Of a stretch of 64,000 nucleotides of DNA, positions 20,835 to 55,500 are shown piece after piece (the first letter of the stretch is position 1; every line of letters starts with the position of its first letter). The notes under the pieces are model-generated. The model ran no database searches. It was given only the letters and a program-made list of their open reading frames with translations, and was not told the DNA's origin. The position numbers and the translations under genes were made by a program. Source of the DNA: Cloeon dipterum (Eukaryota > Arthropoda > Insecta > Ephemeroptera > Baetidae); the NCBI RefSeq assembly GCF_949628265.1, contig NC_088789.1, positions 2,480,001 through 2,544,000 on the forward strand, read 5' to 3'.

Positions 20835-21761
20835 TTACAAATATGGCATTATTGGATGGTCTATGGAGACAGCATTGCAAATTTCTTTAGCGATGTCCTC
20901 TGCGGTAACTTGGCGTATTGGGATATAATCTTCTGGCTTGGTAGTCACAAACCAATGAGGGGGTTTAATGTTCTGAAATTAGAGAATTGCTTATATTGTA
21001 TGTTCCCTACTATAGCACATTAAAAACTCACGGTGACTGTAATTGGTAGAAGCGATTCCCTAACTTCGGCATTCAGCTTTTCAGTCAGTTGTCTCACACT
21101 TTCGTGAGTTGCAATACACGCTACTGAGATTGGGCCAATATCTTGTTTCCCGACCAAGCTAAAAGTTGGACAAATTTACAAATCATTAAAATGCGTCAAC
21201 TTCATTTACAGAAATAGATAGAGTAAATTACCAATTTTAAAATTTAGAATTGTTTACTATATTACCTGGAAATGGTAATGATGTGGCCATTTGTAGTACG
21301 ATTGGCCATCATTTCCCAAACGGCCGCTCTGGAAAACAGGAATGAGGCAGCTACGTTGGTTACATACAGCTTCATCAACGTTGCTGGATCGCACGCTAAG
21401 TAATGAGGAAATTTTTAAAAGGGCTTACTAAAAAAACGTTAGTAACGTTCTTACGATTAATGTTGTGGAACCATCCAGCGGCATTCACGAGCACATCAGT
21501 GCGGCCAAACTCTTTCCTGGTCCAGTTGAGAATCTTTTCCACGTCGGGTGGATAGGTCACGTCACCTTGCACAAAGACCATCTCACCCGTATGGCCCTCT
21601 TCGCTGGTAACTTCTTTCCGCTGGGGAGTTCCAATCAATTTACGGGAAACGCCAACCACCTTCATGCCCAAATCAACCATTTGGCGGGCAGTGGCCGCTC
21701 CTATACCTGTGCTGGCTCCAGTCACAATTGCAACGCGATTCGCCAAGTTTTTCAGTATCAT
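20835..21761 (-). CDS. SDR-2: DHRS11-like SDR with Tyr and Lys both lost
   Basis: Exons at 21761-21455, 21395-21266, 21158-21032 and 20972-20835 give a 233-residue protein. It is the only copy that keeps the canonical cofactor glycine motif (VTGASTGIGAA), and it retains VVGVSRK, LVNAAG, the tetrad Asn (VTNVAAS) and Ser146 (TISSLVG). The active-site pair is gone: Tyr is Cys160 and Lys is His164 (CIATHESV). So it should fold and may bind NADP(H), but should not catalyse the classical SDR reaction. Exon phases (1, 2, 0) match its paralogues. The start ATG aligns with the starts of the other units. Confidence 0.85.
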
Positions 21762-22127
21762 ATTGAAATTATTGCTGTGACTTTAGAGAAGTTTTGGCTC
21801 AGGTGGTGAGGTTATCAAGTGCTCACAGGTACGCTGACAGGATGAAATTAAATGCGAGTTTTGCTTATTCTAGCCCTTAACATATTGGCTTTAGAAAAAG
21901 AGGGGGTAGGTATTTTAGAATTCAAAGCACTCTTGGTGAAGTCTGCAAATAATTAACAGAAAATAGTTGATATTCCTGAGGGTGATACATTACTGGAATC
22001 ACTGCGATGGAAAAATATTTGGCCACTGTCAGACCGCTTCCGTGCTCGAGGCATCTAAAAAATTGTAGCCCTTTCGGCAATGACGAGAATCTTGAAAATG
22101 AGAAAATATTATTTGTCCTTAATACAC

Positions 22128-22269
22128 GACCAGGTCCCGGGAAAATTGCGCAACTTTCAACAACCAAACGCGAATTTCCTTGTTGCAAGAAAAGGTCAAC
22201 AATCAATTCAACAATGAAAATTTGTGTGTTTGTTGAACGTTGCGCAATTTTACCGGGACCAAAATGGTC
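22128..22269. repeat. Small MITE inserted in the SDR-2/SDR-3 spacer
   Basis: The element has terminal inverted repeats GACCA..GGTCCCGGGAAAATTGCGCAAC and GTTGCGCAATTTTACCGGGACC..TGGTC, about 35 bp each. The paralogous spacer downstream of SDR-1 (about 18,790-18,812) lacks it and reads straight through as CCTTAATATATAGTC. The insertion is flanked by ACA/CAC-type 3-bp repeats. Confidence 0.88.
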
Positions 22270-22513
22270 ACATAGTCTTTTTGAATTTTGATCTAAAATG
22301 TGGAAAGAATCAAAGAAGAAACACATTATTCGATGTTGATTTTGTATTTCAAGATCTAAAATTACTATGTACAGATAGAGCTGGATTTCTAAAATCTTTT
22401 GTTTTTCACGATGTTAATGGAATTGTATACATTTAAAAGTTATAGTCAGACAATTACAAAATTGATTGGTCAATATTAGACCTCGTGGTCGCATATGATA
22501 ATTTCTGTTCCTC

Positions 22514-22548
22514 TATATAAATGAAGAAGAGTACACTTTTACGTCAGT
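22514..22548 (+). promoter_or_regulatory. Core-promoter-like TATA plus initiator, antisense to SDR-3
   Basis: TATATAAA at 22514-22521 and TCAGT at 22544-22548, 32 bp apart from first T to A. It lies 92 bp before the SDR-3 stop codon and points toward it. In units 4 and 5 the region is degraded (for example CAATATAAAG at about 24,121). Confidence 0.45.
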
Positions 22549-22637
22549 TGACGCCACCTCTTACAATTAGTCAGCAATTAATGCAGTCAAAATCTTGAAT
22601 TCGATAAAATTGGACTTTTTTGACCATACATTGACGT

Positions 22638-23540
22638 TTACAAATATAATGGCAATAATGGATGGTCTATGGAGACAGCATTGCAAATTTCTGTAGCGAT
22701 GTCCTCTGCGGTAACTTGGCGTATTGGAATATAATCTTCTGGGTCGGTAGCCACTAACCTAAGAGGGGGTATGTTCTGAAATAAGAGAATTGCTTATATT
22801 GTATGTTCTCTATAACACATTATAAACTCACGGTGACTGTAATTGGTTCAAGCGATTCCCTAACTTCGGCATTTAGAATTTCAGTCAGTTGTCTCACAGT
22901 TTCGTGAGTTGCAAGATACGCTCCTGAGAATGCGCTCATATCTTGTTTCCCGACCAAGCTAAAAGTTGGACAAATTTACAAATCATTAAAATGCGTCAAC
23001 TTCATTTATAGAAAGAAATAGGGTAAATTACCAATTTAAAATTTAGAATTGTTTACTATTACCTGGAAATGGTAATGATGTGGCCATTTGTAGTACCATT
23101 GGCCATCATTTCCCAAACGGCCGCTCTGGAAAACAGGAGTGTGCCAATGATGTTGGTTTCATACATCTTCTTCAACGTTGCTGGATTGCTCGCTAAATGA
23201 GGAAATTCTTTAGAGTGCTTATTAAAAATACGTTAATAACATTATTACAAGTAATAGTAAAGTTGTGGAACAATCCAGCGGCATTCACGAGCACATCAGT
23301 GCGGCCAAACTCTTTCCTGGTCCACTTGAGAATCTTATTGATGTCGCGTAGTTGGGTCACGTCACCTTGCACAAAGACTATCTCGCCCGTATGGCCCTCT
23401 TCATTCCGCTTGGGGGTTTTACGGGAAACGCCAACCACCTTCATGCCCAAATTAACCATTTGGCGGGCCGTGGCCGCTCCAATACATGAGCTGGCTCCAG
23501 TCACAATAGCAACGCGATTCGCCAAGTTTTTCAACATCAT
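22638..23540 (-). CDS. SDR-3: DHRS11-like SDR, Lys lost (YxxxH)
   Basis: Exons at 23540-23249, 23192-23063, 22958-22832 and 22775-22638 give 228 residues. An upstream in-frame ATG at 23564 would add eight residues, but 23540 aligns with the starts of the paralogues. The cofactor loop is TGASSCIG (Gly to Cys). Asn (ETNIIG), Ser141 and Tyr155 are kept, and the lysine is His159 (YLATHETV). Exon 1 is slightly shorter than in SDR-1 because of a deletion after VVGVSRK. The protein is closest to SDR-1 in exons 1-2 and to SDR-2 in exon 4, which suggests gene conversion or mosaic unequal exchange. Confidence 0.85.
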
Positions 23541-24246
23541 ATTGAAATTAGTTGATAAATTCAAGTGCTCACAGGTACGCCGACAGGACGAAATTAAATG
23601 CGAGTTTTTCCTTTTCTAGCCCTTAACATTGGCTTTAGAAAAAGAGGAGGTAGGTATTTTAGAATTCAAAGTACTCTTGGTGAGGTCTGCAAATAATTAA
23701 GAGAAAATAGTTGAAATTCATGACTGACAAATTCCTGGAATCACTGTGATGGACAAATATTTTTCTATTGTCCGACCGCTTGCGTGCTCGAGGCATCTAA
23801 ATAATTGCAGCCCTTTCGGCAATGACAAGAATCTTGAGAATGAGAGAATATCACGCACAGTGTTCAGATTATTTTCAAATCCTAACAGAAATTTCGGTTT
23901 TAAAGTGTGCAAAGAAGAAGCATATTTTGATTTGGAATATTTGGATGTTTATTTTTATTTCAAAAGATCTAAAATTATTGCAGATAAATAGCTGGATTTA
24001 TAAAATCTTTTGTATAGTTTTTGGGCACGATGTTCATAGTATTAAAATTACATTTAAAATATATAGTCATAAAATTTAAATGGATAGGTCATTTATAGAT
24101 TGTGGTTAATTTCTGCTTCTCAATATAAAGAAGAGAAACACTTTTTCATCATCTCTTACAGTCAGAATTTCAGACAAACCCTTGAACTCAATAAAATCCA
24201 GTAAAATAAAAAAAATGGAATATTTTCCCATACATTGGCGTGTGCA

Positions 24247-25325
24247 TTAATTAATGGACGGGTTTCTGCGAGAGATTACCGGGAGAGAGATAGCGTTGCA
24301 AATTGCCTTAGCAACGTCCTCGGCGCTAATGTTGGGCCATGGGGAATCTTTGTTCTCATCATCTTTTTTACTCTCATCCACTAAATTACGAGGGATAGGA
24401 ATTTCCTGAAATTTTGAAATTATGGAACTGATCATCATTTATGTTCTCTAGACACAACAAATACTCACGGTAACTCGAATTGGTAGCTCCGAGCTTTCAA
24501 CTTCGTTTTTTAGAACTGAAGTCAGTGATGACACATATTCTTGAGTTGCAAGATGCACTAATGCATATGATCTCAAATCGTGTTTCCCAGCGCTAAAGGT
24601 TGAATAAATTTATAAATCATTAAATGCGTCATCTTTAAAGGCAAAATAATGGACAAACTATCGAGCTTTTTCTCTGGGGAGCCAAGATAGTAAAATTTAT
24701 CATTGAATAGGAAAACATTTCTGCAGAGGCTGGCTTATTCAAATTTGTAGTAGTATGACGATATATTTTGATCGTTTGAGTTTCACCAGAAAAATTAAAA
24801 TTTATATAATTGTATGCTATTACCTGGAAATGGTAATTATGTGGCCATTTTTAATTTGTGTGGTTTTCATGTCCAAAATGACCGCTCTGGAAAACAGGAG
24901 TGTGCCCAACATTCGAGTTTCAGCCATCTTCATCATCATTAATTGATCGCACGCTACATAGGAAATTTTTTATGGAGCGCACTATAAACGTATAATATAC
25001 AATGCTTACAAAGTATTTCGTAATTGTGGAATGATCCAGCCGCATTCACAAGCACATCAGTGCGGCCGAATTTCTCCCTGGTCCATTCGATAATTCGACT
25101 GATGTCGTTTTGCTTGGTCACATCGCCTTGGATAAAGAACATCTCGCCTGTTTGGCCCTTTTGGCTGGAAAAAATATCATCCTGCTGGGCAGCTCCAAGC
25201 GATTTACGGGAAACGCCAACCACCTTCATGCCCAAATTCACCATTCTGCGGGCCGTGGCCGCTCCCACGCAAGAGGTGGCCCCAGTCACAATTGCAACGC
25301 GACCCACTAAGTTTAGGAAACTCAT
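24247..25325 (-). CDS. SDR-4: DHRS11-like SDR with Asn, Tyr and Lys lost
   Basis: Exons at 25325-25010, 24953-24824, 24592-24469 and 24405-24247 give 242 residues. The cofactor loop is TGATSCVG. The catalytic tetrad is almost gone: Asn is Arg (AETRMLG), Ser149 remains, Tyr is His162, and Lys is Gln166 (HLATQEYV). One codon is missing from the loop between Ser and the Tyr position. The last exon starts EIPIPRNLVDES and is unrelated in detail to that of SDR-1 to SDR-3 but shares its start with SDR-5. The frame is intact, with canonical splice sites. A non-enzymatic role is likely if it is expressed. Confidence 0.83.
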
Positions 25326-26071
25326 AATTATTGCAATTATTATTGCTGTGACTTTAGAGAGAAGTTTTGGCTAAGATGGTGAGGTAATCAAGTGTTAAAA
25401 AAATTAACTTTAGAAAACGAGGGGGTAGTATTTAAAAATTCAAGGCCCTCTTGGTGAGGACTACACTCGCAAAAAATGAACAGAAAATAGTCGAAATTTA
25501 TGAATGATGCATTCCTGAAGTCACTGCGATGGACAAATATTTTTCTATAGTCAGACAGCTTGCGTGCTTGAGAGGCATCTAAATAATTGCAGCCTTTTCG
25601 GCAATGACGAGAATCTTGAGAATGAGAGAATATCATGCACTGCGTTCAGATTATTTTCAAATCCTAACTCAATTTCGGTTTTAAAATGTGCAAAGAAAAA
25701 ACATGTTTTGATTTGAATGTTAATTTTTTATTTCAGAAAATTAAAAATTTTTACAGATGTGTTTAGCTGGTTTTATAAAATCTTTTGACTGTGCAAGTTT
25801 TGGACACCATCTTAATGTTCTATATAACTACATTTTAAAAGATCTAGTCGAAAAATTTAAATTGATAGGTCATTTATAGACGCATTGTTGTTTTATGGTA
25901 ATTTCCGTAATTTCTGCTTCTCAAAATGGAAATGAGAAACACTTATTCACATCATTATATCGTCATCTCTTATAGTCAAAAATGCAAACAAACCCTTTAA
26001 TTCGTAAAAATCAAGAAAAAAAATATAAAATTGGAATATTTTCCACAGATATTGACGTGTACATTAATTCC

Positions 26072-27137
26072 CTAATGAATGGACAGCAAGTTGTGAGCTA
26101 CCGGGACAGAGACAGCGTTACAAATCACCTGAGCGACGTCCTCTGCGGTAACGTCTTGCCATTGGAATTTCTTTTTCATCTCTTTTATTTTATTCTCATC
26201 CAGTAAATTACGAGGGATAGGAATTTCCTGAAATTTTGGAATTATAGAATTGCTGATATTATTAAACACCATAATACTCACGGTAACTCGAATTGGTAGC
26301 TCCGACCTTACGACTTCGTTTATTAGAACTTTAGTCATTAATGCCACACATCCTTGAGTTGCAAGAAAAACTCCTGCATGAATTCTCCAATTTTGTTTCC
26401 CAATTACGCTAAAGTTGGAAAAAATTATTAACCATTAATACACGTCAACTTTAAAGGCAAAATAATTAACACAAACAAATAGCATAAATTAACCCTTTGG
26501 GGAGTCAATAAGATGGTAAAATGTATAATTGAATAGAGAGGCTATACTGTATGAAAATTTCTGCAGCGGCTGGCTAATTTTGTGTTTCACTAGATAGATT
26601 AAAATTTATATAATAAATTGTTTGTTATATTACCTGGAAATAGTAATTATGTGGCCATTTTTAATTTTTGTGGCTAACATGTCCACAATGACCGCTTTGG
26701 AAAACAGGAGTGTGCCCGTAATCCTGGCTTCAACCATCTCCTTCATCTTAACTTGATTACTCGCTATAAGAAATGTTTATATAGCGCACTTTAAACGTAT
26801 AATTATATGTACAATGCTTACGAATTATGTCGAAATTGTGGATCGATCCAGCGGCATTCACGAGCACATCAGTGCGGCCAAACTCTTTCCTGGTCCATTT
26901 GACAATCCGATTGACGTCGTCTGGCTTGGTTACATCGCCTCGCACAAAGAACATCTCGCCTGTTTGACCCTTTTGGCTGGGAAAAATAGCCTCCTGCTGC
27001 GCAGCTCCAAGCGATTTACGGGAAACGCCAACCACCTTCATGCCCAAATTCACCATTTTGCGGGCCGTGGCCGCTCCCACGCAAGAGGTGGCCCCAGTCA
27101 CAATAGCAACGCGACCCACCAAGTTTTGGAAATTCAT
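26072..27137 (-). CDS. SDR-5: DHRS11-like SDR with Asn, Tyr and Lys lost
   Basis: Exons at 27137-26822, 26763-26634, 26408-26282 and 26227-26072 give 242 residues. The cofactor loop is TGATSCVG, followed by VVGVSRK and LVNAAG. The tetrad reads Arg (VEARITG), Ser149, Phe163 and Gln167 (FLATQGCV). It is the first unit of the array and lies 494 bp from the stop codon of the adhesion GPCR upstream of it, which is on the same strand. It is the sister of SDR-4 (same exon-4 type and same exon-1 length). The open frame across four exons argues against a decayed pseudogene. Confidence 0.83.
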
Positions 27138-27630
27138 AATTAGTGTGACTTTCAGAGAAAATTTGGCTAAGATGGTGAGGTATTCAAGTGCTCAGGTACA
27201 CCGACAAGAAATAAAATGCGAGTTTTACTTTTCCTAACCCTTAACATTGGCTTTAGAAAGAGAGGGGGCAGGTATTTTAGAATTCAAAGCACTCTTGGTG
27301 AGGTCTGCAAATCATTAACAGAAAATAGTTGAAATTCATGAGGGTGATAAATTCCACTCTTGGTGAGGTCTACACTCACAAAAAAATTAACAGAAATATT
27401 TGACTGCTAAATTCCTGGAATCTTTTGGGAAAAATGAAATCTTTGATATATTTATATAAGCTACCTTTATTTCTATTATATTAAAATTCAACAAAAAAGG
27501 CTATAAATGGGTTATAAAATCTTACAACTACATGTGGCACATTTTTGGTAACGATATTTATGAAGTGCCTCGAAAAATATCAGCACTAAAAAGATCAGAT
27601 CACAATTCAGAATTCAGATAGTTTGAAAAT

Positions 27631-30600
27631 TCACTGGCTGGAAGCATTTCTGTTTGTGCTTTCAGTCAAGTTCTGTGTTGAAGTCTTTTGCCTCAGAGGA
27701 GCCCTCTCGTCTCGGACTCTTGAAGAAGAATGCGAGTTGCTTTCACTGAAGGCTGTACTTGATGTGGTTGGCCTTGAAGGTCTGGTCGGCGCGAATCGCT
27801 CTGGAAGGGCCGTCAGCCACATTTGCCGCGTTTTCTTCTCCCACACGATGAAGAAAATGAAAAGCGCCAGCCCTTGCAGGGTTGCGGTGGTGCAGAAGAG
27901 GTACGAGAAGGCGACCCTCCAAGGCGCCAAGAAGGGAGCCACCATGGCCAGAAGGCCGAAAATCCAGGTCAGTCCAAGCAGGAAAAAGAGCAGCACGCTC
28001 ATACGCAACTGCCGCAAGGCAATCACTCGCCTCTCTGCCATGGTGCTGATGGTCAAATTCTTTGGCCGTCCACACGACACTCGGTAGACAATCAAGCAGA
28101 AAACCTAAAAAATTACTTAAGAGATTAGGATTTCACAAAGCAAATAAAATCGTCATAACATAAGGACTTAACATTTTGACAAAGCGCGAGTTAAATAAAT
28201 AAGTTTTTCCTGTCATGGTAAGTGAAGCAAAGTTCACTAGTCAAAGTTTTGATGATTCCTCTTATTAAATTAAGATTTTTTCAACTGTAGGAATTTAATT
28301 TAATTTTTTACTATTTCATATTTGATTTTAAATTATAATTTTGTTAATAGACATTTTTAAACGAGAAAAATGGATTACTTCTGAACCTTTGAGACTTTCA
28401 AAATCATTTTATAAAAAAACGCCTTTTCTCAATGTTGATGAACTACCCCATTTTTCATCTAGATAAAAATACCATCCAAGTTTCCGACATAGCAAAAAAT
28501 TTAATGTTTTAATTTAAAAACTTAATTCTTGCTCACCAAAAGATTTCCGATGACCGCACAGGCAACAGGAATGATGACTCCCAGAATTAGTGACAGCTCT
28601 ACAGGATAGCAGAAGTTGGAGGAGCTGTTTGTGCGAGGGTAGCTCTTTGCAGGCCCGATTGACAGCAGGACGATGACCGGCACGGTGGGAAGAACCCAGC
28701 CAAAAAGCACGCCCTTGAGCAGGAAATGCGGTGGACGCGCGGATAGAACGGATACAAAGCGCAGGAACTGCAGCAGAGCCGAGATGAGCATCCAGCAGAA
28801 GGACGCAAGGATAGAGTAGTGCAGGAGAACGCCCAAGGTTATGCAGGATGCGTCCGAAGCAGCGCCTGCGTCCAACGCGATGGACAAAAACACGGCCATT
28901 GTCAAACCAATCGACGCAGAGAGGTGAAGCAAAATCTGCAAAATAAAAAAATAGAGAAATTGCGATCAATGATAAAATTTGCAAAACATAACGTAATAAA
29001 TAGTAATTATGTACAGTAGTGGAATGCAAAACAACAATTTCCTCGTCTCATTATTTTGCTACCGTAATTGCATGCTACGGGAAGTGATGCTATTTATGAT
29101 TGAATCGCGTCTGCCTTTAAAGGAAAGCGGCTTTCAAGTGATCAATCACTCTCGCTCAACATGCAAATCAATTTGTTCTAATTAGCGCACCTTGTTGCCG
29201 AGCCGTGACCTCCAGTGTTCAAACATCGCAGCTGTGGCGGCGATTCCCAACAAACCGATCAGCGAAAGGGAGCAGCCAACGATGGATATGATGTCCAGGA
29301 TCTTGTCATCGCCAGACACACCGATGATCTCGCCGAAGTGGGTCAAGTGGTTGCACTCGCACACGTCCAAATCACCCTCTTTCCCGACGAAAGTGCAGCC
29401 GTCGGTCTTCCAGTCGCTGTTGTAAATGTCCCAGTACGCGCACTTGACCAACATCCCCTCCGAGGGGTTGGTTGGTTTGAACTTGAGCCGGATGACTGGC
29501 TCCTTAAGCTGGTGCCAAGGGTGCTGGCCGTCGATACTCACACCAAGCACTTTGCTGTTCAGGGTCAAGTTTTCGTTCTTGGCCTTGAAAAGGCTGTCTT
29601 CGTTTCCCAAGAGGACGAAAGCAGCTCTGCCGGATGAAATTTGTAGGAAACTGGCTGACGTAACCGCGCCAGATTCGGCGGTGAGAGGCACGATTTTCGA
29701 GTCGGAGATTTGCACCCCTTTCACGCCGCTCAGCGATAGGTCGGCAGCCATCAAAGAAGTGGCGTTGGAGTGGGCTCTGGCGATGCCGCTCTGGTCCAGT
29801 TGAACTTTGGCCAAAATCGTGTCAACACTCTGCGGATATATTTATATGTTATTTAGAAATGTAACGCATAAGTTAGGAAATAATTTACTCTCAAAATAGA
29901 GTTGGTAGCGGTTTGCAAATTTATCGTGTCAAAGTTGTTGACTTGGCTGGAAACTGACACTTTGTCCAGAACTGATGCCACGTCATTCAGACTATCTTCT
30001 CTCAAGTGTTGTGCGTGTTTTGTGATTTCAACAAGGACATTGTCCACAACCATCACATCAGAAGCGGAAGGAACTGCTTTGGAACTGAGGATGGTCGCCA
30101 TGTTCCTGGTCACCTTAACCACAGTTTCAGATGACACGGCATCCTAAACAAACGAGGACAAACGGTAAAGTTTATATATAAATCAAAAGGAATAAAATAC
30201 TTTTCTAGTGAATTCGTACAGCAAGAAGGTGGTGTTGGACACGGCGTTTGGATCGCAAGTGCCGTTTTTCTCTGCCCAGCGTGCAATGCCATCGATGAGT
30301 TTGCACTCTCTTGCCACAGGCAGGAAGTCAGAAGTAAAACACGGCTGGGTGGGAAAGGCTATTTCGCCCACTTCCGTCTCTGGCCAAAAAATGGGATGAA
30401 CCACACTGGAAATACTTGTATCCCAATAAGAAGGACAAGAAGTTCCCATCCGTCTCGCCTGAACACTTTGGTCCAAAAAGGTCGGGTTGACTTTTTCTGT
30501 GGTTGTCGTTTCCACTGGTTCTTCAGCAGGGGTGGTTGTTGGGGGCTCAGTTTCTATTTCTTGAGTCGTGGGAACATCTGAAAACATTTTTAGTAGTTTG

Positions 30601-38709: not shown

Positions 38710-41700
38710 TTAAACGGAGCCATTGGCCGGCTCCTTTACTCTCGTTTGCCAGATCAAATTGCTTCCACTGAAATAGTCTTCAATCTCTGAGAGAGTTCTA
38801 CCCTTGGTTTCCGGCACAAACAGGTACACAAAGAGGGTGCCGAGTAGAGCGCACAGGCCAAAGAAGAAAAATAGGCCGTGCGGATGAAGCACGTGCACGG
38901 CCCACGGGTACATCTTGGTCGTGATGAACAGGGTCGTGTTGATCACAGCGAAGGTGAGACCGCCAGCTGGTCCTCGGGCCCGCGCCGGCAGCATCTCTCC
39001 CAGCATCAGTCCGGGCAGGACGAAGAATCCGTATGTGTTGCAGCCGACGTAGAGAATGACCAAGGTGGATGGCAGCCAGGGCAGGGTGCCTGGGGCCGGT
39101 GCCACGTACAGCCAACAGCCCAAAGCCACCGCAGCAGCTGCCGAACCTAAACCAGAGCTGATGGCCAGTGGTCTTCGGCCAACCTGAATTTAAATTTAAA
39201 AAAGACTGTAAATTAACACGATCTTTTGAAATAAATATTAAGCTAAAAATTGAAAATATTATTTTATAATGCAGAGGGGATTGGCAGATTTAAGTAAGAA
39301 ACAAATATGAATAATTCATAATGAATTTTTCTTGTGTAAATATCCTCTTGCAAACATCCAGTAATATAGCAAGAGAAGATTTTTAAGTCCCAAGCTTTTT
39401 ACTTTCATTGCTGCACGTGCTATAAGATTATAATTGAGGATTTTTCTGCAACTTGATTGCGGGAAAAATTCATCATACATATTTTTTCTTTGCTATCTAA
39501 CTCACCACTAGACATTTTGGTATAAGTAGCAGAATATTTGAAATTGGATGTTGCCTTAACTCTTTTAATATTTTTGAAAAACGATCAAAAAGACGTGTCA
39601 AAGTTAGCGTGTTGCAAAACACAAGGGTAAATATTGGCAGTTGGAGAGCTGAAGGTCGCATAAATTTAAAATTTTTCATGCCGGAATGACGCCATGCATA
39701 AAAGAAATACAACCGAAAAAACTAACGTGGCAACTGTCCGACAACTGAATCGATTTACTAGCTGCTTCCAATTCTTGACAGTCTGCCAAAATCTCTACGC
39801 CCCACAAAGTTAAAAGCTCTTAACTTCAGTCCCCTTCCCATGGAAATCAATAATTTTTACAGTTAAAGAAAGCCTTGATTTTTAAAAGTTTTCCATCTAA
39901 TTACCAGAACTTTATTTAATCCGTCGAAAAACTTTGATTAATTTTTAAACACGCGAAAATCATAGGCCGAGGGAACTTTCTCTATTACGTATTCTCACCT
40001 TGAGCAAAAGCAGGCAGGCCAGGACTGTTATGACTGTTCGGACGAGAGCTGTCAGCACCGCGGTCTCCAGTTCTGCCTTGCGGTCCGTCTCGGCGCCGCC
40101 CTCGGCTTGTTGCAACACGTCCACCGCGTAGAAGATGATTGTGTACGTGCCAGACAAGATTTGCACGATGTTGAACACGTTAACCACGATCAAGGGCTTG
40201 AGGACCAACCTGGACAGTATCGGAGACTGCCGCCACGAGTTGGTCCAAGATATCCGTCTGTTTTTCTGCTTCGCCAAAGCATCCTGAGTTTTTTTTTTAA
40301 AGGAATACACGTGCTTAAAAAATAACTCTTTTCCTCTAGTCTCCTTTCATACCTTCTCTTCCTGCTCCCTGCGATTAGCCAAAACGGCAAGTTCACTTCT
40401 AGCCTGCGCCATTTGGCCGCCCCGCAGCCAGGTCAGCGCTCTAAGTGCTTCCTGACCGCGACCCACCTTGGCCAGCCAGGGTGGACTCTCAGGAAGGTTC
40501 ATCAAAGCCACTAGGGCGAATATGGGCAAAATCGCACACAGACCGGCCACGGTTCTCCATGGCAACATCGAGCCCATCGTGTAAACGATCAAAATGCCTA
40601 GAGAGTAGCTTGCAAACGGAGCACCTAAACACAATTTAAAACAAATACTAAAATTATTGATTTGGATTTGATATATAACAAATAAAAAGTGCCATGTAAA
40701 AACAATAAATATGGACTTAATTTTCCGTTTTGGATGTAGACTTATTTAATAGAGTTCACTACAACTTGAATAAATATCAGTACAAATTTGAACAATTGGG
40801 CAAAAACATAGCTAATAGTTTATAAAATAATTCGCGGAACTTAAAGTTTTAAATATACCCTGTGTGACATTTCCCTTTAACACGATCAAAGCTACAAATT
40901 AAAAACAAAGAAGAAAAAATTCAGACGAACCGACAAGAACTCCTCTGAGCTTTGGTTCAGCCACTTCACCCAGCAGGACCTGCGAAGGCGCAGCGGCCAA
41001 ACCGACGGCCAGGCCGCAGAAAAGGCGGCCGATAAAGATGAGGACGTGGCCGCCGGCGAAGGCGAGCACGCTCCAGCCAACGAGGAAGGGCAGCACGCTG
41101 AGGCGAAGGGTGTTGCGGCGGCCCCAGTTTTCCATCAGGGTGCCGCTCAGCAGGGAGCCGATGGGCGTCGAGGCCGAGTGGATGCTGGCTGCAAGGTCGA
41201 GGAAAGCGTATCGTAAATCGCATCATTGGCGTCGCGCTCTGAGGGCCTTGAACTTGCCGCGACGGCCGAGATCGAGCACGCGACAAACAAGAGGCGATGC
41301 ATGGAGTCAATTTCAATTGCCATGCACGCGTTCATTTCTTTTGGTATCTCAACTTCCTAGTAAGTGACAATCATTCCCACGGTAATATTAAATGAACTTG
41401 ATTTTTAAAAGACCTTGGAAGTTAGTGCTATCGCTGCCACTAGTTTTGATAAGATTTGAATTTTGTTGCAGCGTGGATGATGAATGATGAATCTAAATTT
41501 TGCGTGCAAGTCACTGCAAATTGATCCTTGCGATGACTTTGCAATAAAAAACACATGCAGCTTTTGGACCATCTAGGAATAGGAGTTCCAATTTATTTAT
41601 GTTTATTAATTAGGTAAATTAAACCTTTGATAGAAAATAGATTAAAATGAACGCGATATTTATTTCCTTATCAAGTGGTTTCATTCTGTTATGTTATAAT

Positions 41701-45020: not shown

Positions 45021-47504
45021 GTCGGTAGTAGTACGTTGTCTTCGCTTTGGTGCTCAGTCCATGACTGATATTGGAGCTTGCTCTCTGCTGCGAACACTCG
45101 CCCAAGACTAACGCAGTCGGTCTCGTGTGGCTCACTTTGGTCGCGCTCTGGCGGCGCAACTCGCGAGTCGCAACGCCGGCAGTGTTGGGGCGCGGGCGAA
45201 AAAAATCCGCCCAAACGTCAAGACGCGGAGAAAGCAGCGAGAGAGGCGTTTATTCTCGCTTTTTCTATGCGAGGCCAGTTAACATGCGCAACTCATGCAG
45301 ATGAGAAGAGAGATCGACTGATCGAATGCTGGGTTAAGCCTTCGATCTTAACTGAAATTGTGTTTGTCCGTGGCGTGCCCCAAAAAAATGGCAAAGCACT
45401 TAAGTGATGAGACCCAATTCTTTTGTGATGACTGCACGTGGGCTTTTGTCAACAAAACTTGTGCTCTGTCCATCTCATCAAAATTCAGCTGTCGTTCGAT
45501 CAGGTTCTAAGCAATTTTTCTTTCTTCTTCTTTCGCAATCTAATCTAATCTTATCGCACTTAAGCTGATTCGCGCAGCAAAGTGGATTATATGTTGCGGT
45601 GGAATTTCTCTGGGAACCCATGGATTGCGCACACCACGAGCTCAATATCCCACTCAGTCTCTGTCCAGGTTCCCATCTGATAAGGCCCTAAATCGATTAA
45701 ATTAGAGATTGTGAATCTGCATAATTTGGTCTAAGCCATATTGAGAGATTTCCCAATTGTGAATGCACTCATCTCTTTTATCAGATATTATATAAGTATA
45801 TACACGGCATTTTCAAGGCCGAAATCTGGAAAATTAATGTTCAAATCTCATTCACCAGTTTTTTTTCTTTTGGAATTCCCAGCACGAGTTGCGTTAAAAG
45901 TCACGTCGTCCAAATCTATTGGCCAAATAAACCACACCAGATAGCATTGAACGCAATGTTAAGGCCATGATTTTTTTTGCCAAGCAAAAATAAGGTTGAG
46001 GCGAAAGGTTAATTTCACCATATTCTAGGATCCTGTTTTTTAATTCTAAATAATTATTTGCAGTGCGGGAGATTGTAATCGCAATTTCTATTAAATTAGC
46101 CTTTCTTGAAATAGAAAATTAAAGTATTAACGGTGTAGTAAGGACTGGATTAGATAAGTTAAAGCCCGGCATATATGAATTATTATGAGATTGTTCAGTA
46201 GGCAAGTGTATCCCTTGCTTAACGTAAACTAAATATCATATTATAATTCTGTGTTAATGTATCCCCTGCTGACAGCTCATGTCTTGACGACTATTTTAGG
46301 AGTCACTTACACAGCATTTTTGCACCTTGGAAACTCCCAGCATGAGATCTCGTATCAGCAATAAATCCAAAGACGCGAAATAGCGATATAACTTTCGCCT
46401 CAGCACATACGAAACTCCATTAAAATTAATCATTCGGCGTTGCGTTTGTAGCAAATGAAATCCAACCAGCCTACCTTGCACAGTGTCGTTTGCATCAAAC
46501 AGAGTTCGAGGCTGAAAATAAATTTTACTTTGATGCTTCAATCATGCAAGAGTTGCGGGTCAGAGAAATGAAATAACGCAATTCGAGAGACATATTCTCG
46601 TTCTGGTTTTCCTCCAGATTTATTGCGCAGCAGCATGCAGTACACGTTGATGCACAAATTGAATGAGAGAGAGCTACTTTAATGCAATGGTGTGTGTGTG
46701 TGTGTGGACGCTCCGCACATTTCGCAGTGGCACTTGATCCACTCGGTGCGGAGCTTCGGACGGCCAGCAGGGCTCGATCTGACGCGTGAATCAAACTGCT
46801 TCACGTAGATGACCCCATCGACGCGACGACCCTTTTAGGAATCAGGACAAAGACACGCACTCGTCACCTTCCACCGGGGTCGCGCGACCATTTTACAATT
46901 ATTCCAAAGATTTACTGAGCAATTGACACAAAAAGACTGCTTGCTGCGTCAAGTGGGACGGAAATTTTCTTGAGTGCTGGTTGTAAAGAGAATTTGTCTA
47001 ATTTTTGGTCCCTAGTTTTTATACTCTTTAAAATATTCGATAAATAAGGCATTCGTACTGCTACTTTGTGCGCCGAAGTTAACAAAATTTATAATCGACA
47101 ATATATCCTTCCATTGCTGGGGATTTTGGTTTGGATAAAAATAAACTGTACACATTATTATTTTGTCTCCATCACATGTATATACTGCTCACTTTTCTAT
47201 TGGGTTTTCTCTTAAAATTGAACACAAAAACACTCACAAATCTCTTAAAACTGACCAGAAAACTCAGAATTAATGAGAAATTACACGAACTAAAGAACAG
47301 CATATTTTATTATCAAGCGGCTTTCAAACTATTATTAAGAGTGAGAAACCTTTGACTAGTGAATATCTATAGACTAATAATTACAAAATATTACTTTTGT
47401 TCGTTGGACGGGGTTTACTGACTAAGGAACATTTTATTTGTTGTTTAATAAATCAACGCAGGAGTGTCTCTGCTTTCGTTTTCAGTCAGTGTCACTCACT
47501 CAGG
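45021..47504. other. Intergenic, upstream of sugar transporter
   Basis: This holds the transporter promoter and 5' UTR. A minus-strand stretch at about 46,300-46,510 is open and bounded by splice-like signals (TTTTCAG at its 5' side, CAAGGTAGGC and TGTGTAAGTG further on). It could be a 5' exon, but no frame or homology supports a call. A short (GT)n run lies near 46,690. Confidence 0.4.
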
Positions 47505-50440
47505 TCACAGTCGGATCACTAGTTCTGAAAGAAGCTGTGAGTAGCTGCTGTCCAACGACGGCAGCATTGTTTTCTCGCACTCCCTAGTCGGTATTGTAAC
47601 CACCTGTAAAAGCAAAACGTGTGAAATTCAATAAATCCAAGATAGAGTTTGCAGATACTATTTCAAACCTTAAATTTATATTTAATATCGAAATAATAAA
47701 AATCTCTTAAATAAATAATATGACAGATGCAATTTTGTCGATGAAGATGCAAATGAAGGAAAAAACACACGAGGTTGTAATTATTTTCCAGTTGAAGTTA
47801 AATGCAGCTTCCTGGGTTCAAGCTTATAATTTAAGGCTGCAACCAGTTGAGCACGATATTTCAGTAGAAAAAACAGCTTGCACACCGAGGAAGCTGAATT
47901 TAAATTCTACTAAAAATTTATGACTCGTACACAATTTACAATTTTATTGAATTGGGAGTTCAGTGAAGATAATTAATATTATAATTTGAAATTGTTTAAA
48001 AATGTATTTTCTTCTTATTACGATAATCTCATTTTTTTTGTTTTAGGTCAAATTTTACAGAAAATCACGACTAGCAATCTTTTTGGGAAAAATAAGCCAA
48101 GTTGATGAAAAAGTGACATTGCTGTGGTAACTACTAAATGAAATTAAAACTTAACTTAATGAATTAATTAAGAATGCATTTATTTGTTTTAAAAGGAACT
48201 TTCTCATCATATAATTTAAATTCGACCATCCATAATGTCCTGTTCTCATTTAAGCTTACTTGACTATGCAGTGGAATCTTTTCGTAAAAGGTGGGTTGCC
48301 TGAGCAGCGGCAGGGCAGCGTGGTCGTTCGCACTGCCCAGGCAGGGGTCATCGTCCTTCATAACCCTGGCCATCAGGGTGGACGGAGTCTTCTTCTGTCG
48401 CCCTCTGCGCACCAAGGGAGGTATCGAGGCGAGCTCTTGCTCAACGCCCTTGAAGAGGCTAAAGAGCAGATCGGTGTTGGCGGGAGTCACAATGGACATC
48501 TCAGGCCGCTGATCAGATGAATCAGGCTCGCGCGTTAGCGGCGGAAGCACCGGGTACACGGATCCTGGCGAGACGTTCGCAGGTTTGTTCGGCTGAATCC
48601 AGAACGAGTGAGGAAGAGCTCGCAGTTTCATCGGTAGTGGATCTGCGACAAAAGGATTTTGTTAGAAATTGTCATCTAATTACTAAAAAAAATATTATTT
48701 ATTTATTTGTATTCACACAACAGTACATAAATTGAAGCTCCTCGGTTCCTATTACCACGCATTTACGAAAAATAAAGTCATATGAAATTAAATGAAACAA
48801 AGAAGAAAAAGAAACATAGTGTGTATTCATTTGAACTGTTTGTGTCGCAATTGCATGTGCATGTTTTGCTACATAGGTGGCCTGAAAACGAGAAACACAT
48901 CGTAATTATAGAATTTGTTAGTGCATTAACGATGCTCTCGACTGTTTAATGTTTTAGTTCTGTTATTTTTTGTCTAAGCAGTTGGGTTACTTGGTCGGCC
49001 GCCAGCCTGTCGAAATTTTAGCTTTGTATATATACAGTTGCTTCGCTAACAACCGCTTAATATAGAAAAAAAACATGCGCCTGTGATTGTGATTTGTTGA
49101 ACATATTAAATAAACTGACCAATTTTCTAGCTCTTCGAGGATTAATTTTTAAGAGTAAGAAAATATATATTTTGAAGGTGATTTAGAAACTATATTAACT
49201 GCGTTCTGTTACTCCATATGCTCTTTAAAGTGTCAGTTGTTAGTAACTTAATACCTCCTAAATAAATCCGATTTTGTATATCCATATTTTTTGTTCCATT
49301 ATTTCAAAATCTTGTAATGATAAGCTATTGCTAAATCGCAGCGTAAGCCCTTCTGGTCAGCACCCAAACATTTTATCGCGATTGAAAGTAAAAGTGTGAT
49401 ATTTGGTAATAGATAAAAGCTGCGTGCATGTATATATAAACTAGCTGAAATCGATTTATGTTAAGCGTGTGCTAACGTCTTTTATAGAAACTGGTCGATT
49501 AGTCCTGTGACATATTTTATAGTCTCTATTCGTCTTCATTTCGCCTAATGGTGTTCTTGAACCCAACTTTGAACTCTTTTTAGGAGGCAGAAAATCAACA
49601 TTACAGCGTATAATATTTTTAACAGGAAAGCACGAGAGCAGATGCGTGACGCGATTAGAATTAGAACAGGCGATTTGTGCGCGGTGACGCGAATGGCACA
49701 CTGTACACGCAGTCGTGAGGGGGTAGGGGGAAGAATTAAACAGCGCGTTAACTATGACGTTGAATATATTTAAAATACAAAAATGAATGCTCCTTCTGGC
49801 GGTTTATCTAGATTTCGGGATGAGCTGGTGCGAGACGAGAAAAACGCGGGAAAGTGAAAGTATATAATAATATCCTCATAATATTGGTAAATTTTATTTT
49901 ATTTTGGGAAATTTGTGGGAAATCGAAAAATGGGAACATTTAGGATGTATTCCTGACAGCTCAAAACTTCTAGTTTCATAAGATCTGTGCTAATTTTAAA
50001 CATATTATTTTTATAGTAGAATAACATAGAAGATAATAATTTCAGAACGTGTTGAAATCTAAATTTGCATTATATTGATCTTAAAAAGCAATTGTTCACG
50101 AAATGTCCAGAAAAATTCATGTCAGATGGAGTTAAAGAATTTTACTAAATCTCTCAAGTTTAAAATCTAACTAAAAATAAAATGGATTCAGTGGGTGCAG
50201 GGTGAAAAAAGACGGCTGACCTCTCTTTAGCTGCTGGGGCCGTGGTTGCTGCAGTTGCTGCTGCTGCTCGGTGGACTTTTTCACGCTCTTCTGGTGCGCG
50301 TGCAACTTGAAGCCCGGCCGCCGGGGCCCATAGGTTGGCCCCGAGCCGCAGCTGTCCGGCGAGCTGCAGTCTTCGACCTCGGTCAGCGAGTCGTCCTCGA
50401 CGGAGCGCGCCTCAAGCACGGGTTTCCTCTTGCCGCTCAT
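47505..50440 (-). CDS. Disordered protein with YAP/FAM181-type TEAD-binding omega-loop
   Basis: Three exons (50440-50221, 48642-48260, 47603-47505) join in phase to 233 residues, with donors and acceptors in good consensus. The splice between exons 1 and 2 creates PMKLRALPHSFWIQP (residues 77-91). This aligns with the TEAD-binding omega-loop of YAP (MRLRKLPDSFF), keeping the Met, Leu, Arg, Leu-Pro and Ser-Phe positions, with Trp at the last aromatic as I recall for vertebrate FAM181 proteins. About 40 residues later NTDLLFSLF holds an LxxLF (133-137), like the TEAD-binding helix of YAP but placed after the loop instead of before it. There is no WW domain, so it is not Yorkie. The rest is polar, Gln-rich (59-70) and disordered. 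The predicted role is nuclear binding to Scalloped/TEAD. I do not recognise an established orthologue. Confidence 0.68.
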
Positions 50441-51030: not shown

Positions 51031-52037
51031 TAGAGTGTATTTCAAGAAAAAGACCGAAAAAAACAATACCGGATTTCCGGTAATGTTCTTGTTTTGCCGG
51101 ATTTTCTTTTTTTAAATTACATTATGTATGACTATGCCATAAAATAAATAAAGTTTGAATTTGAATTTGAATTCAATACCAGAACAATACCAAACAATAC
51201 TTGAAAAGACAATACAAGAATATTGTTTTTTCCTGAATTCTTTATGGTGGAAAAATTTTCATTGAAAAAAATCTTCTGATTTTAAAAAAATCCGTATTTT
51301 TGGTCGTGTGAATTTTTATTTTTGCAATGAGGTGGGTTTTTTTTCTGAAAATATGCGTGTTTTGGCGAAGGCTGTACTGGTTTTACCAATAGACCGAAAT
51401 TTTAACTCTCATCGCAATATTCCAAAATTTCTGACTATTTTGGCACGAAAAAACTCTTTCGGGGTAAAATTCCGAAAAATGCTGATAAAACCAAAACAAG
51501 TGTTTTTCCAGCTGTTTTTCCGCAAAAAACCAGTGTTGCATTTTTGCTTATTGCAAAATTGGCGAACCCTGATTGCTTCCTTTCCTCCACGAACTGACAA
51601 ACTGAGAATCTTTAGGCTTTTAATGCTGCCATTGCTGCCGATAAAACTGTCCCTGTCCCGTCCCTGTCTCGAAATAAAAAATTCGACCCGTACCTCAGGG
51701 AATCCCTCAGGGACGGGGCGGGAATCCCGTAATACCAGTCCCTGGTCCCCTCTCTAGTTTGTTTCAATTTTAAAATATATTTAATCAAGCAAAATGACAA
51801 TTTTATTAAAATGCCAAAGCTAAAGATTTGGTAACATAAAACTTAAGAAAGGTGTCTTTCAGAAAAACAATGCCAAAGACAATAATTTTTTCAAAAAACA
51901 ATACCGAAACAAGAAGGTTTGAAAAACAATACAAGACAAGAAAATTTAAAATATTCCTTGTAGAAACAATACCAGTTCCGTCAAGAAAAGTTCCAGACAA
52001 TATGTAATACAAAAGTTTGGTATTGAAATACACTCTA
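51031..52037. mobile_element. Non-autonomous hAT-type element with perfect 8-bp target duplication
   Basis: Terminal inverted repeats TAGAGTGTATTTCAA (51031-51045) and TTGAAATACACTCTA (52023-52037) match at all 15 positions. They are flanked on both sides by GTCTGAAA (51023-51030 and 52038-52045), an exact 8-bp target duplication as made by hAT transposases. Both ends carry many copies of an ACAATAC(C) motif, resembling subterminal transposase-binding repeats. A GGGAC-rich patch lies at about 51,640-51,760. The one longer open frame inside (51,308-51,757) shows no transposase motif. Confidence 0.93.
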
Positions 52038-52589: not shown

Positions 52590-55500
52590 ATGGATACTGG
52601 TATGTTGAAAATCGCTTGAAATGACGTGCAATTGGCCTAATTTTGTATTTTCTCGTGCATGTAAACAACAGGCGAAGAAGAGGCACTCTCGCCGAATTCG
52701 GGGGACAATTCTGCCTCCAGCCCAATGTCTAATGATAATAGGTAAGTTTAATACTGTGAATATAGTAATTTAAATATTTGATTTGGCAATAAAACGAAGA
52801 TTGCTGCATAATAAACGATAGATCTTCTATTTCCAAAAAGGCAACGGTTCTAACTAAACTACAAATTACAACAAATCTCGGCTGAATAGAGCATTTATTT
52901 GATTATTTTTGTTACAAAAATGGAGAAAGGGCCAGATTCGATTTGAGTAAGCAGGAATTAAAATTTTAATCCTTCTTTCTGAAGCTATTGATGCATTGGT
53001 TTTTCGAATTCAGTAATTTATAACATACATTTTTTCATCAATTTAAAGTGTCTTTCATGTAACGTATCTTCACAAATATTTGATAAATGTTAAAAGCTTA
53101 TTTTACCTTCCCTTATCACACGATGTGGCACTTAAATATATATGTTTTGTGCTATTTAAATTAGACTGTCCTCAATCGTAAGACCGAAGGAATAATATTT
53201 TATGATGCTGTCTTTTTCGTAGTGCTTCAAAAGCGAATAGCCCGCCAGCATCACCTACCGCATCTGCATCTCCCCGGAGCGCATCTGGATCGTCTAGGTC
53301 ACGCAGCAACTCGCCAGCCAACCCTAAATCCCCTGATTCTGAAAGGTAAAAAAATAATACTATAAAATTTCCTTTCTCGGAATCATGACTGTATTGCGGT
53401 TTGCAGGTCGAATGATGGAGTTGCGTCCCCAGCCAGATCCAGGCAGGCATCCGAGTCCCCAGACAGGAATGGAAATGAATCTCCTAGTAGCAGGCAAGGG
53501 TCTGCGTCCCCAAGGTCATCAAGAAAAGGCTCAAGGTCTCCAAGATCTCCTGTAGGGTCAAATCGATCCAGGTCTGCTTCAGGATCCCGCTCTCGTTCTG
53601 GTTCGAGGAAAGGCTCTGCTGCAGGCTCAAGGGCGTCTTCAAAAGCTTCACAACGAGGATCGCCAGCCCCTGACAGATCGCGCTCTCGGTCAGGCTCCAG
53701 AGCCGCCAGTGCGGCTTCAAGGTCCAGAAGTCGTTCAGCAAGTGGTTCGAGGAAAGCGTCAAGGTCGCCAAGTGGCTCAAGAAAAGGATCCAGATCGCCC
53801 AGTGGCTCCAGGAAAGGGTCCCGGTCAAGAAGTGGGTCAAGGGAAAGATCAGCCTCACCTGCCAGGTCACGGTCTGGTTCTAGAAAAGGTTCTAGATCAC
53901 CCTCTGGATCACGGTCAAGATCAAGGTCAGGAAGTGGCTCCAGGCGTGGCTCCCGATCTAGGTCTGGATCTCGATCAAGGTCTGGTTCTCGCAGAGGCTC
54001 CAGGTCGCCCTCTGGGTCTAGGAAAGGCTCTAGGTCTAGGAGTGGCTCAAGGTCTGCCGCTGGTTCTAGGAAGGGATCAAGATCTAGGTCTGGGTCAAGA
54101 AAAAGTTCCCGGTCACGCTCAGGCTCTAGGAAAGGGTCTAGGTCTCGCTCAGGATCAAAGGCATCAAGGCGCAGTTCAAGGTCAAGGTAAATAAGTGAAA
54201 TTTAAATATACAAATGAGGAATTTAATAAAGTTTAAATTCATTTTTTTCTTTTGATTGCTGGATGCAAAATGTTAAGTTTTTCGCTTGTATTTTTATAAA
54301 TAAATTCGGCATCTCTTTGGTCAATTTGCCCTTAGGTCTGCGTCCAGTCGACGTTCCAGATCTGGCTCGCGTGGCAGCTCTCGTTCTAGAAGTAGGTCTC
54401 GGTCGGGCTCTCGCTCAAGATCAGGAAGTCGCCGGTCTAGGTCTAGGTCTGGCTCGCGGTCCAAGTCTAGATCTAGATCTCGCTCTGGTGGAGGTGAGAA
54501 GTGTTTCATAAATAAAAATCAGGGTTTGTTGATTTTACATAAGTGTGTAGTTATTTTATCGCTGTATAGAGATAAATCATATTTTGAAAACAGGATCTAT
54601 AAAATTGTACAATTGTATCAGTCGGCACTTAATATTGACAAAGATTCAAGGACTAAACCAATGTTTAGTCTCAAGACAATTTTAATTTCTTTCAGACCAG
54701 TTTTGATGTTAACAAACCTCTAAATAGACATAATTTTAATTCAGTTTAAGAATGACGTCCAAAAAAATGATGAATGTGTTTTTGCTCCTTCTAGAATCAG
54801 AAATTGAGGAGCGTCGTTCTGTTGTGGACTCAGATGAAGAGGTGGGCGGTCCATCGCCCAAAAAGAAAAAGAAGCGCAACGCAGTGAGCGATGATGAAGG
54901 AGAACAGCGTGCAGGAGGAGGCGCTGAGGAGGGTGAGCAGGGTAAAGAAGAGGCCAAAGCAGACACCTCTGCGGCTGAGGGCGCTGCTGCCGCTGCTACT
55001 GCCGTCACCGCCGCAGATGGGTCAGACTCAGATGAAGGACCTGTTTATGATGGCGACCGGGACCAGGGTCTGTCCGACTTTGAAATCATGCTTCTGCGCA
55101 AAAAGGAAGGCCGCGGCAGGAGAAAAAGAAAGGACATCGAAATCATCAACGATAACGACGACATGATTGCGCAGCTGCTTGGCGACATGAGATATGCTGC
55201 CGAAGAGGACCGCATGCTGAACATAGCCAAGAAGCCGGCCACAAAGAAGATAGCCTTGCTGCCAAAGGCAATGTCACAGATCAAGAAGAGGGACTTGCAA
55301 CTGGCGTTTGTGGAGCACAACATGCTAGCCGTTCTCACTGAGTGGCTGGCGCCAATGCCAGACAAGTCGTTGCCTGCGCCAAAAATTAGAACTGAAATTT
55401 TAAGACTTCTAAAAGAGGTAATAATATTAATTTTAAAGTCAAGTATCAGAAGTTTAAATTTAGTTAAATTCAATTAATTCTAGATTCTAGTTAAAAAGAA

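Follow-up and report, generated by a model that had tools for sequence, protein, structure and literature searches.

A predicted mayfly protein carrying a putative TEAD-binding omega loop N-terminal to an LxxLF motif

In Drosophila, Scalloped is described as working with cofactors that include Yorkie and Tgi, a default repressor, for growth (PMC13110368) and Vestigial for wing development (PMC5665465). A helix followed by an omega loop is the order described for YAP, Yorkie, Vg and VGLL2, and no example of a loop followed by a helix was met in the passages of the TEAD-cofactor literature examined. The interface-3 hot spots of YAP are Met86, Arg89, Leu91, Ser94 and Phe95, and Phe96 shields the omega loop; alanine mutants of the hot spots are said to reduce binding more than 100-fold, although a table in the same source gives 87-fold for Met86 (PMC10146773). 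Isolated YAP and Vg loops have reported IC50 values against TEAD4 of 98 uM and 160 uM, respectively (PMC7566471), and because they compete this weakly, a loop on its own may be a weak ligand and a useful cofactor would therefore need a second contact or a high local concentration. FAM181A (6SEN) is described as contacting TEAD through interface 3 only, and FAM181A and FAM181B as having no interface-2 helix (PMC10146773), but FAM181 is assigned both interfaces 2 and 3 in PMC9710580, and so the sources disagree. The latter source places PERCC1 in protostomes, including chelicerates, reports it absent from hexapods as of 2022, and describes a FAM181 member in an annelid; arthropod species appear in one of its figure legends, and arthropod FAM181 relatives may already be published. 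Among the literature matches listed, taken as titles, abstract openings and text passages, no arthropod omega-loop protein beyond Yorkie and Vestigial is named.

Within the window, a stretch of 64,000 nucleotides of mayfly DNA analysed as a whole, three exons on the minus strand (50440-47505) splice in frame to encode a predicted protein of 233 amino acids, and the rebuilt gene model agrees with the positions of the original prediction (47505-50440, Phe87 and Trp88). Exon 1 (50221..50440, minus strand) encodes residues 1-73, comprising a basic N-terminal start, an acidic serine-rich stretch and a glutamine-rich tract, and opens with an ATG at 50440 that is preceded by an in-frame stop four codons upstream. 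Splice sites were scored with approximate weights, by which the phase-1 donor of exon 1 (GAG/GTCAGC) ranks 70th among the 3039 GTs of the minus strand; of the nine GTs in the open reading frame, no other scores positively. Exon 2 (48260..48642, minus strand), which carries the omega loop and a candidate helix, is open in its coding frame, whereas the remaining five frames contain three to seven stops each; its acceptor ranks 209th of 3441 and its donor 40th of 3039. Exon 3 (47505..47603, minus strand; acceptor ranked 50th of 3441) supplies the final 32 residues, including a C-terminal helix predicted with low confidence at 220-232, and the stop codon, which is followed after 66 bases by an AATAAA polyadenylation-type signal (47433..47438, minus strand), with a second such signal, ATTAAA, at 47449. 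Two alternative acceptor-like sites inside exon 2, on the minus strand, were considered against the modelled acceptor of exon 2, which scores 2.47. The one at 48592 scores higher (3.24) yet breaks the frame with exon 1 and was rejected, whereas that at 48564 scores 1.16 and keeps the frame; its use would yield an isoform lacking the omega loop.

Codon usage was assessed with two tests, the first trained on 1767 codons from 11 neighbouring open reading frame pieces, six of which have Pfam or solved-structure support, and compared with mononucleotide shuffles; the stricter test used those six supported pieces (1021 codons) and dinucleotide shuffles. The score of exon 1 was matched by 0/1000 mononucleotide and 22/1000 dinucleotide shuffles, and that of exon 2 by 0/1000 and 9/1000, while the score of exon 3 was not separable from shuffles, being reached by 173/1000 and 160/1000, respectively. 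In the stricter test, one antisense frame of exon 1 that contains a stop scores slightly above the coding frame, and one antisense frame of exon 2 with five stops outscores it. Support for the gene model is thus good from the reading frame and splice sites and moderate from codon usage, the latter because the stricter training set and the dinucleotide shuffles weakened the result of the first test.

The surrounding genes fit an animal gene setting and have no visible link to Hippo signalling. A piece of an IWS1 gene lies at 54740-55474 on the plus strand (solved-structure matches to 'Protein IWS1 homolog', best E 6.5e-32), and an arginine/serine-rich open reading frame at 53366-54187 on the same strand, which has no Pfam match, may, as a guess, be its N-terminal part. 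On the minus strand are an adhesion-type GPCR at 28525-29841, in which two neighbouring open reading frame pieces carry a GPS motif (E 1.4e-9) and a 7tm_2 domain (E 5.3e-12), and a sugar transporter at 38713-41222, two pieces of which match Sugar_tr (E 4.1e-19 and 1.7e-15). A short-chain dehydrogenase piece (26760-27191, minus strand; Pfam E 2.1e-16) falls within the region 21399-27191 on the minus strand, and a similar translation at 21399-21782 (minus strand) and an antisense-looking reading at 25024-25371 (plus strand), both noticed by eye, suggest further copies, such that the short-chain dehydrogenases apparently form a local tandem family.

The omega loop, PMKLRALPHSFWIQP, is interface-3-like and occupies residues 77-91 (48590..48634, minus strand). 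The original prediction held that splicing builds this loop, which is incorrect, given that residues 76-91 are encoded wholly by exon 2. Its reading of the loop itself was borne out by alignment with the YAP loop, VPMRLRKLPDSFFKPP: with YAP residues numbered as in the literature and the original prediction, the equivalents of Pro85, Met86, Leu88, Arg89, Leu91, Pro92, Ser94, Phe95 and Pro99 are kept, including all five hot-spot residues, and Trp replaces Phe96. A Pfam search of the 233-residue protein against 24736 models matched TEADIR3 (PF15238, TEAD omega loop) with an E-value of 2.5e-4 and, as in every run, at 16/16 positions. Against a curated cut-off of 26 bits, the whole protein scored 21.6, the exon 2 open reading frame 22.3 and a native 44-residue piece 25.0, all below the cut-off, and the glycine-flanked loop scored 26.2, marginally above it; the reference loops of YAP and FAM181A scored 36.7 and 40.0 bits, which places PMKLRALPHSFWIQP lower by 10.5 and 13.8, respectively. 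A nearly reversed control piece had no match to TEADIR3. A search of solved structures with the loop (E up to 10) returned five matches, namely FAM181A (6l9f, E 0.03) and four YAP chains (E 0.67-1). The resemblance to the omega loops of TEAD cofactors is therefore supported by two independent searches, of Pfam and of solved structures. A six-frame translation of the window contains the motif a single time, also when two relaxed forms of it are allowed, and the loop falls in a stretch without secondary structure as predicted by single-sequence AlphaFold2, which fits the placement expected of a linear motif.

TEADIR3 was the sole match of the whole protein in the Pfam scan (E up to 10), with no WW, Tondu or other domain, and the original prediction of a protein without a WW domain therefore stands. 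Residues 1-78 matched no Pfam model, although the conserved FAM181 N-terminal region is not known to have a model in Pfam. Patterns for Tondu (a rough form), the Warts-type site HxRxxS, PPxY, CtBP and WRPW did not occur in the protein. The full-length protein had no match among solved structures or in NCBIfam, a prokaryote library, and Rfam gave no match in the window at gathering thresholds. Residues 74-201 gave five pattern stretches in viral contigs and 40 in prokaryote contigs, of which tblastn confirmed none, as expected for an animal gene. The literature search on the loop letters or TEADIR3 found nothing.

The reading preferred here, at a probability of about 0.63, is that this is a real protein-coding gene whose small, mostly disordered product is a putative Scalloped/TEAD ligand, with loop 77-91 placed in interface 3; as judged from sequence, the protein is probably a TEAD omega-loop ligand. 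The loop would seat in the interface-3 pocket of Scalloped/TEAD in the manner of the FAM181A and YAP loops, with Met78, Leu83 and Phe87 filling the hydrophobic pocket, Arg81 pairing with a TEAD Asp, Ser86 forming hydrogen bonds and Trp88 capping the loop. At the Yorkie site its likeliest role would be that of a competitor or an adaptor, since neither a WW domain nor Tondu nor a recognised activation domain is present. We infer TEAD binding, a nuclear role and competition, the last of which the original prediction had framed as competition with Yorkie or Vestigial for Scalloped.

A tentative account of its ancestry, compatible with the preferred reading, is that the protein is an arthropod orthologue or other relative of FAM181 or PERCC1 that has diverged, its conserved helix region at the N-terminus and its interface 2 being lost, relocated or not recognised. 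The closest loop is that of FAM181A, the protein shares with it the lack of a WW domain, and the reported occurrence of PERCC1 in protostomes such as chelicerates and of FAM181 in an annelid is in keeping with such descent, but PERCC1 is reported absent from hexapods (PMC9710580), Pfam matches nothing outside the loop, and exon 1 has no LxxLF upstream of it.

The original prediction also placed an LxxLF helix second, after the loop. The sequence NTDLLFSLF is indeed present C-terminal to the loop, but it begins at residue 129 and is separated from P91 by 37 residues, not by about 45 as had been stated; 46 is the distance from Phe87 to L133. The LxxLF motif spans L133-F137, is followed by Val140 (LxxLFxxV) and is the only one in the gene model. 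It lies in a candidate interface-2 helix predicted by single-sequence AlphaFold2 at residues 127-145 (48428..48484, minus strand), with a block pLDDT of 47-57, which is of low confidence and was obtained with no alignment; the mean pLDDT of the protein is 47.2, and the other predicted helices, both short, are at 192-195 and 220-232. In 20000 shuffles of residues 92-233, LxxLF arose in 4.7% and LxxLFxx[VIL] in 1.2%, so that LxxLFxxV is only modestly above chance and LxxLF alone is weak evidence. Residues 119-167 had no match among solved structures. Four further LxxLF matches are present on the minus strand between 47400 and 53400, and a canonical order supplied by another exon was considered. 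Stop codons lie within or near the matches at 51217 and 52181; around that at 49122, in intron 1 (open frame of 41 codons), all acceptors and donors score negatively, and that at 52677 (open frame of 47 codons) has one acceptor scoring 0.92 and only negative donors. Upstream LxxLF exons were rejected because usable splice sites are absent.

Helix 127-145 is compatible with a possible interface-2 helix in reversed order. A two-site ligand of this kind is unlikely; in it the loop would occupy interface 3, and the chain would turn back after a spacer of 37 residues so that the LxxLF helix entered the interface-2 groove, an inverted order with an avidity like that of YAP. The predicted helix, the valine that extends the LxxLF to a pattern rarer in shuffles and the lack of an upstream helix with usable splice sites argue for it, whereas the frequency of LxxLF alone in shuffles, the low confidence of the helix and the missing structural match argue against it, as do the helix-then-loop order described for YAP, Yorkie, Vg and VGLL2 and the reported fall in VGLL2 affinity with a longer linker (PMC7566471).

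It is likewise doubtful that the motif is a chance or convergent look-alike in an unrelated gene, or that the gene model is spurious, such that the loop does not bind TEAD. The motif is short and was chosen by eye out of a long window, the whole-protein TEADIR3 score lies under the Pfam cut-off, and codon support is moderate; against this, the E-value of 2.5e-4 comes from a scan of the whole Pfam library, every one of the five hot-spot residues is kept, the nearly reversed control has no match, and the solved structures retrieved are those of FAM181A and YAP. An arthropod Scalloped cofactor of inverted order that arose separately from the YAP/FAM181/PERCC1 line, or was rearranged out of it, and competes with both Yorkie and Vestigial is improbable.

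The protein at this locus is small and otherwise not recognised, and with its well-preserved omega loop it may represent a further TEAD partner. If the preferred reading of a putative interface-3 ligand is true, the protein would be a further omega-loop ligand that might compete at the hot spot used by Yorkie. Should the host be a hexapod, the FAM181A-like mode would extend to a group from which PERCC1 has been reported missing. Were the inverted order of loop and helix real, the two TEAD sites could be bridged either way round.

Among the known systems, Vestigial and VGLL2 likewise combine a helix and an omega loop, but their Tondu beta-strand/helix precedes the loop and supplies the hot spot (PMC7566471), whereas the mayfly protein has no Tondu match. 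PERCC1 shares the interface-3 consensus PxxxRxLPxSFFxxP, the second Phe of which is Trp here, as well as an LxxLF, and is shown with no WW domain in the source, but its interface 2 precedes interface 3 (PMC9710580), whereas the LxxLF here follows the loop; PERCC1 is further characterised by conserved N- and C-terminal regions. YAP, TAZ and Yorkie are alike in the omega-loop hot-spot residues, as judged from YAP, and the LxxLF, but differ in that their LxxLF is N-terminal to the loop and in that the protein described here has neither a WW domain nor an HxRxxS site of the Warts type. The closest loop is that of vertebrate FAM181A, which also belongs to a protein without a WW domain. FAM181A differs in having Lys where PMKLRALPHSFWIQP has Leu at the YAP Leu88 position, and its family in a conserved N-terminal region that is not recognised here, where the loop lies within the first 40% of the 233 residues. 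The two loops have P-M-x-x-R-x-L-P-x-S-F-W-x-x-P in common, and because FAM181A also reads Ser-Phe-Trp, Trp at the Phe96 position is not unusual, and the Trp of the putative mayfly loop has a structurally characterized precedent.
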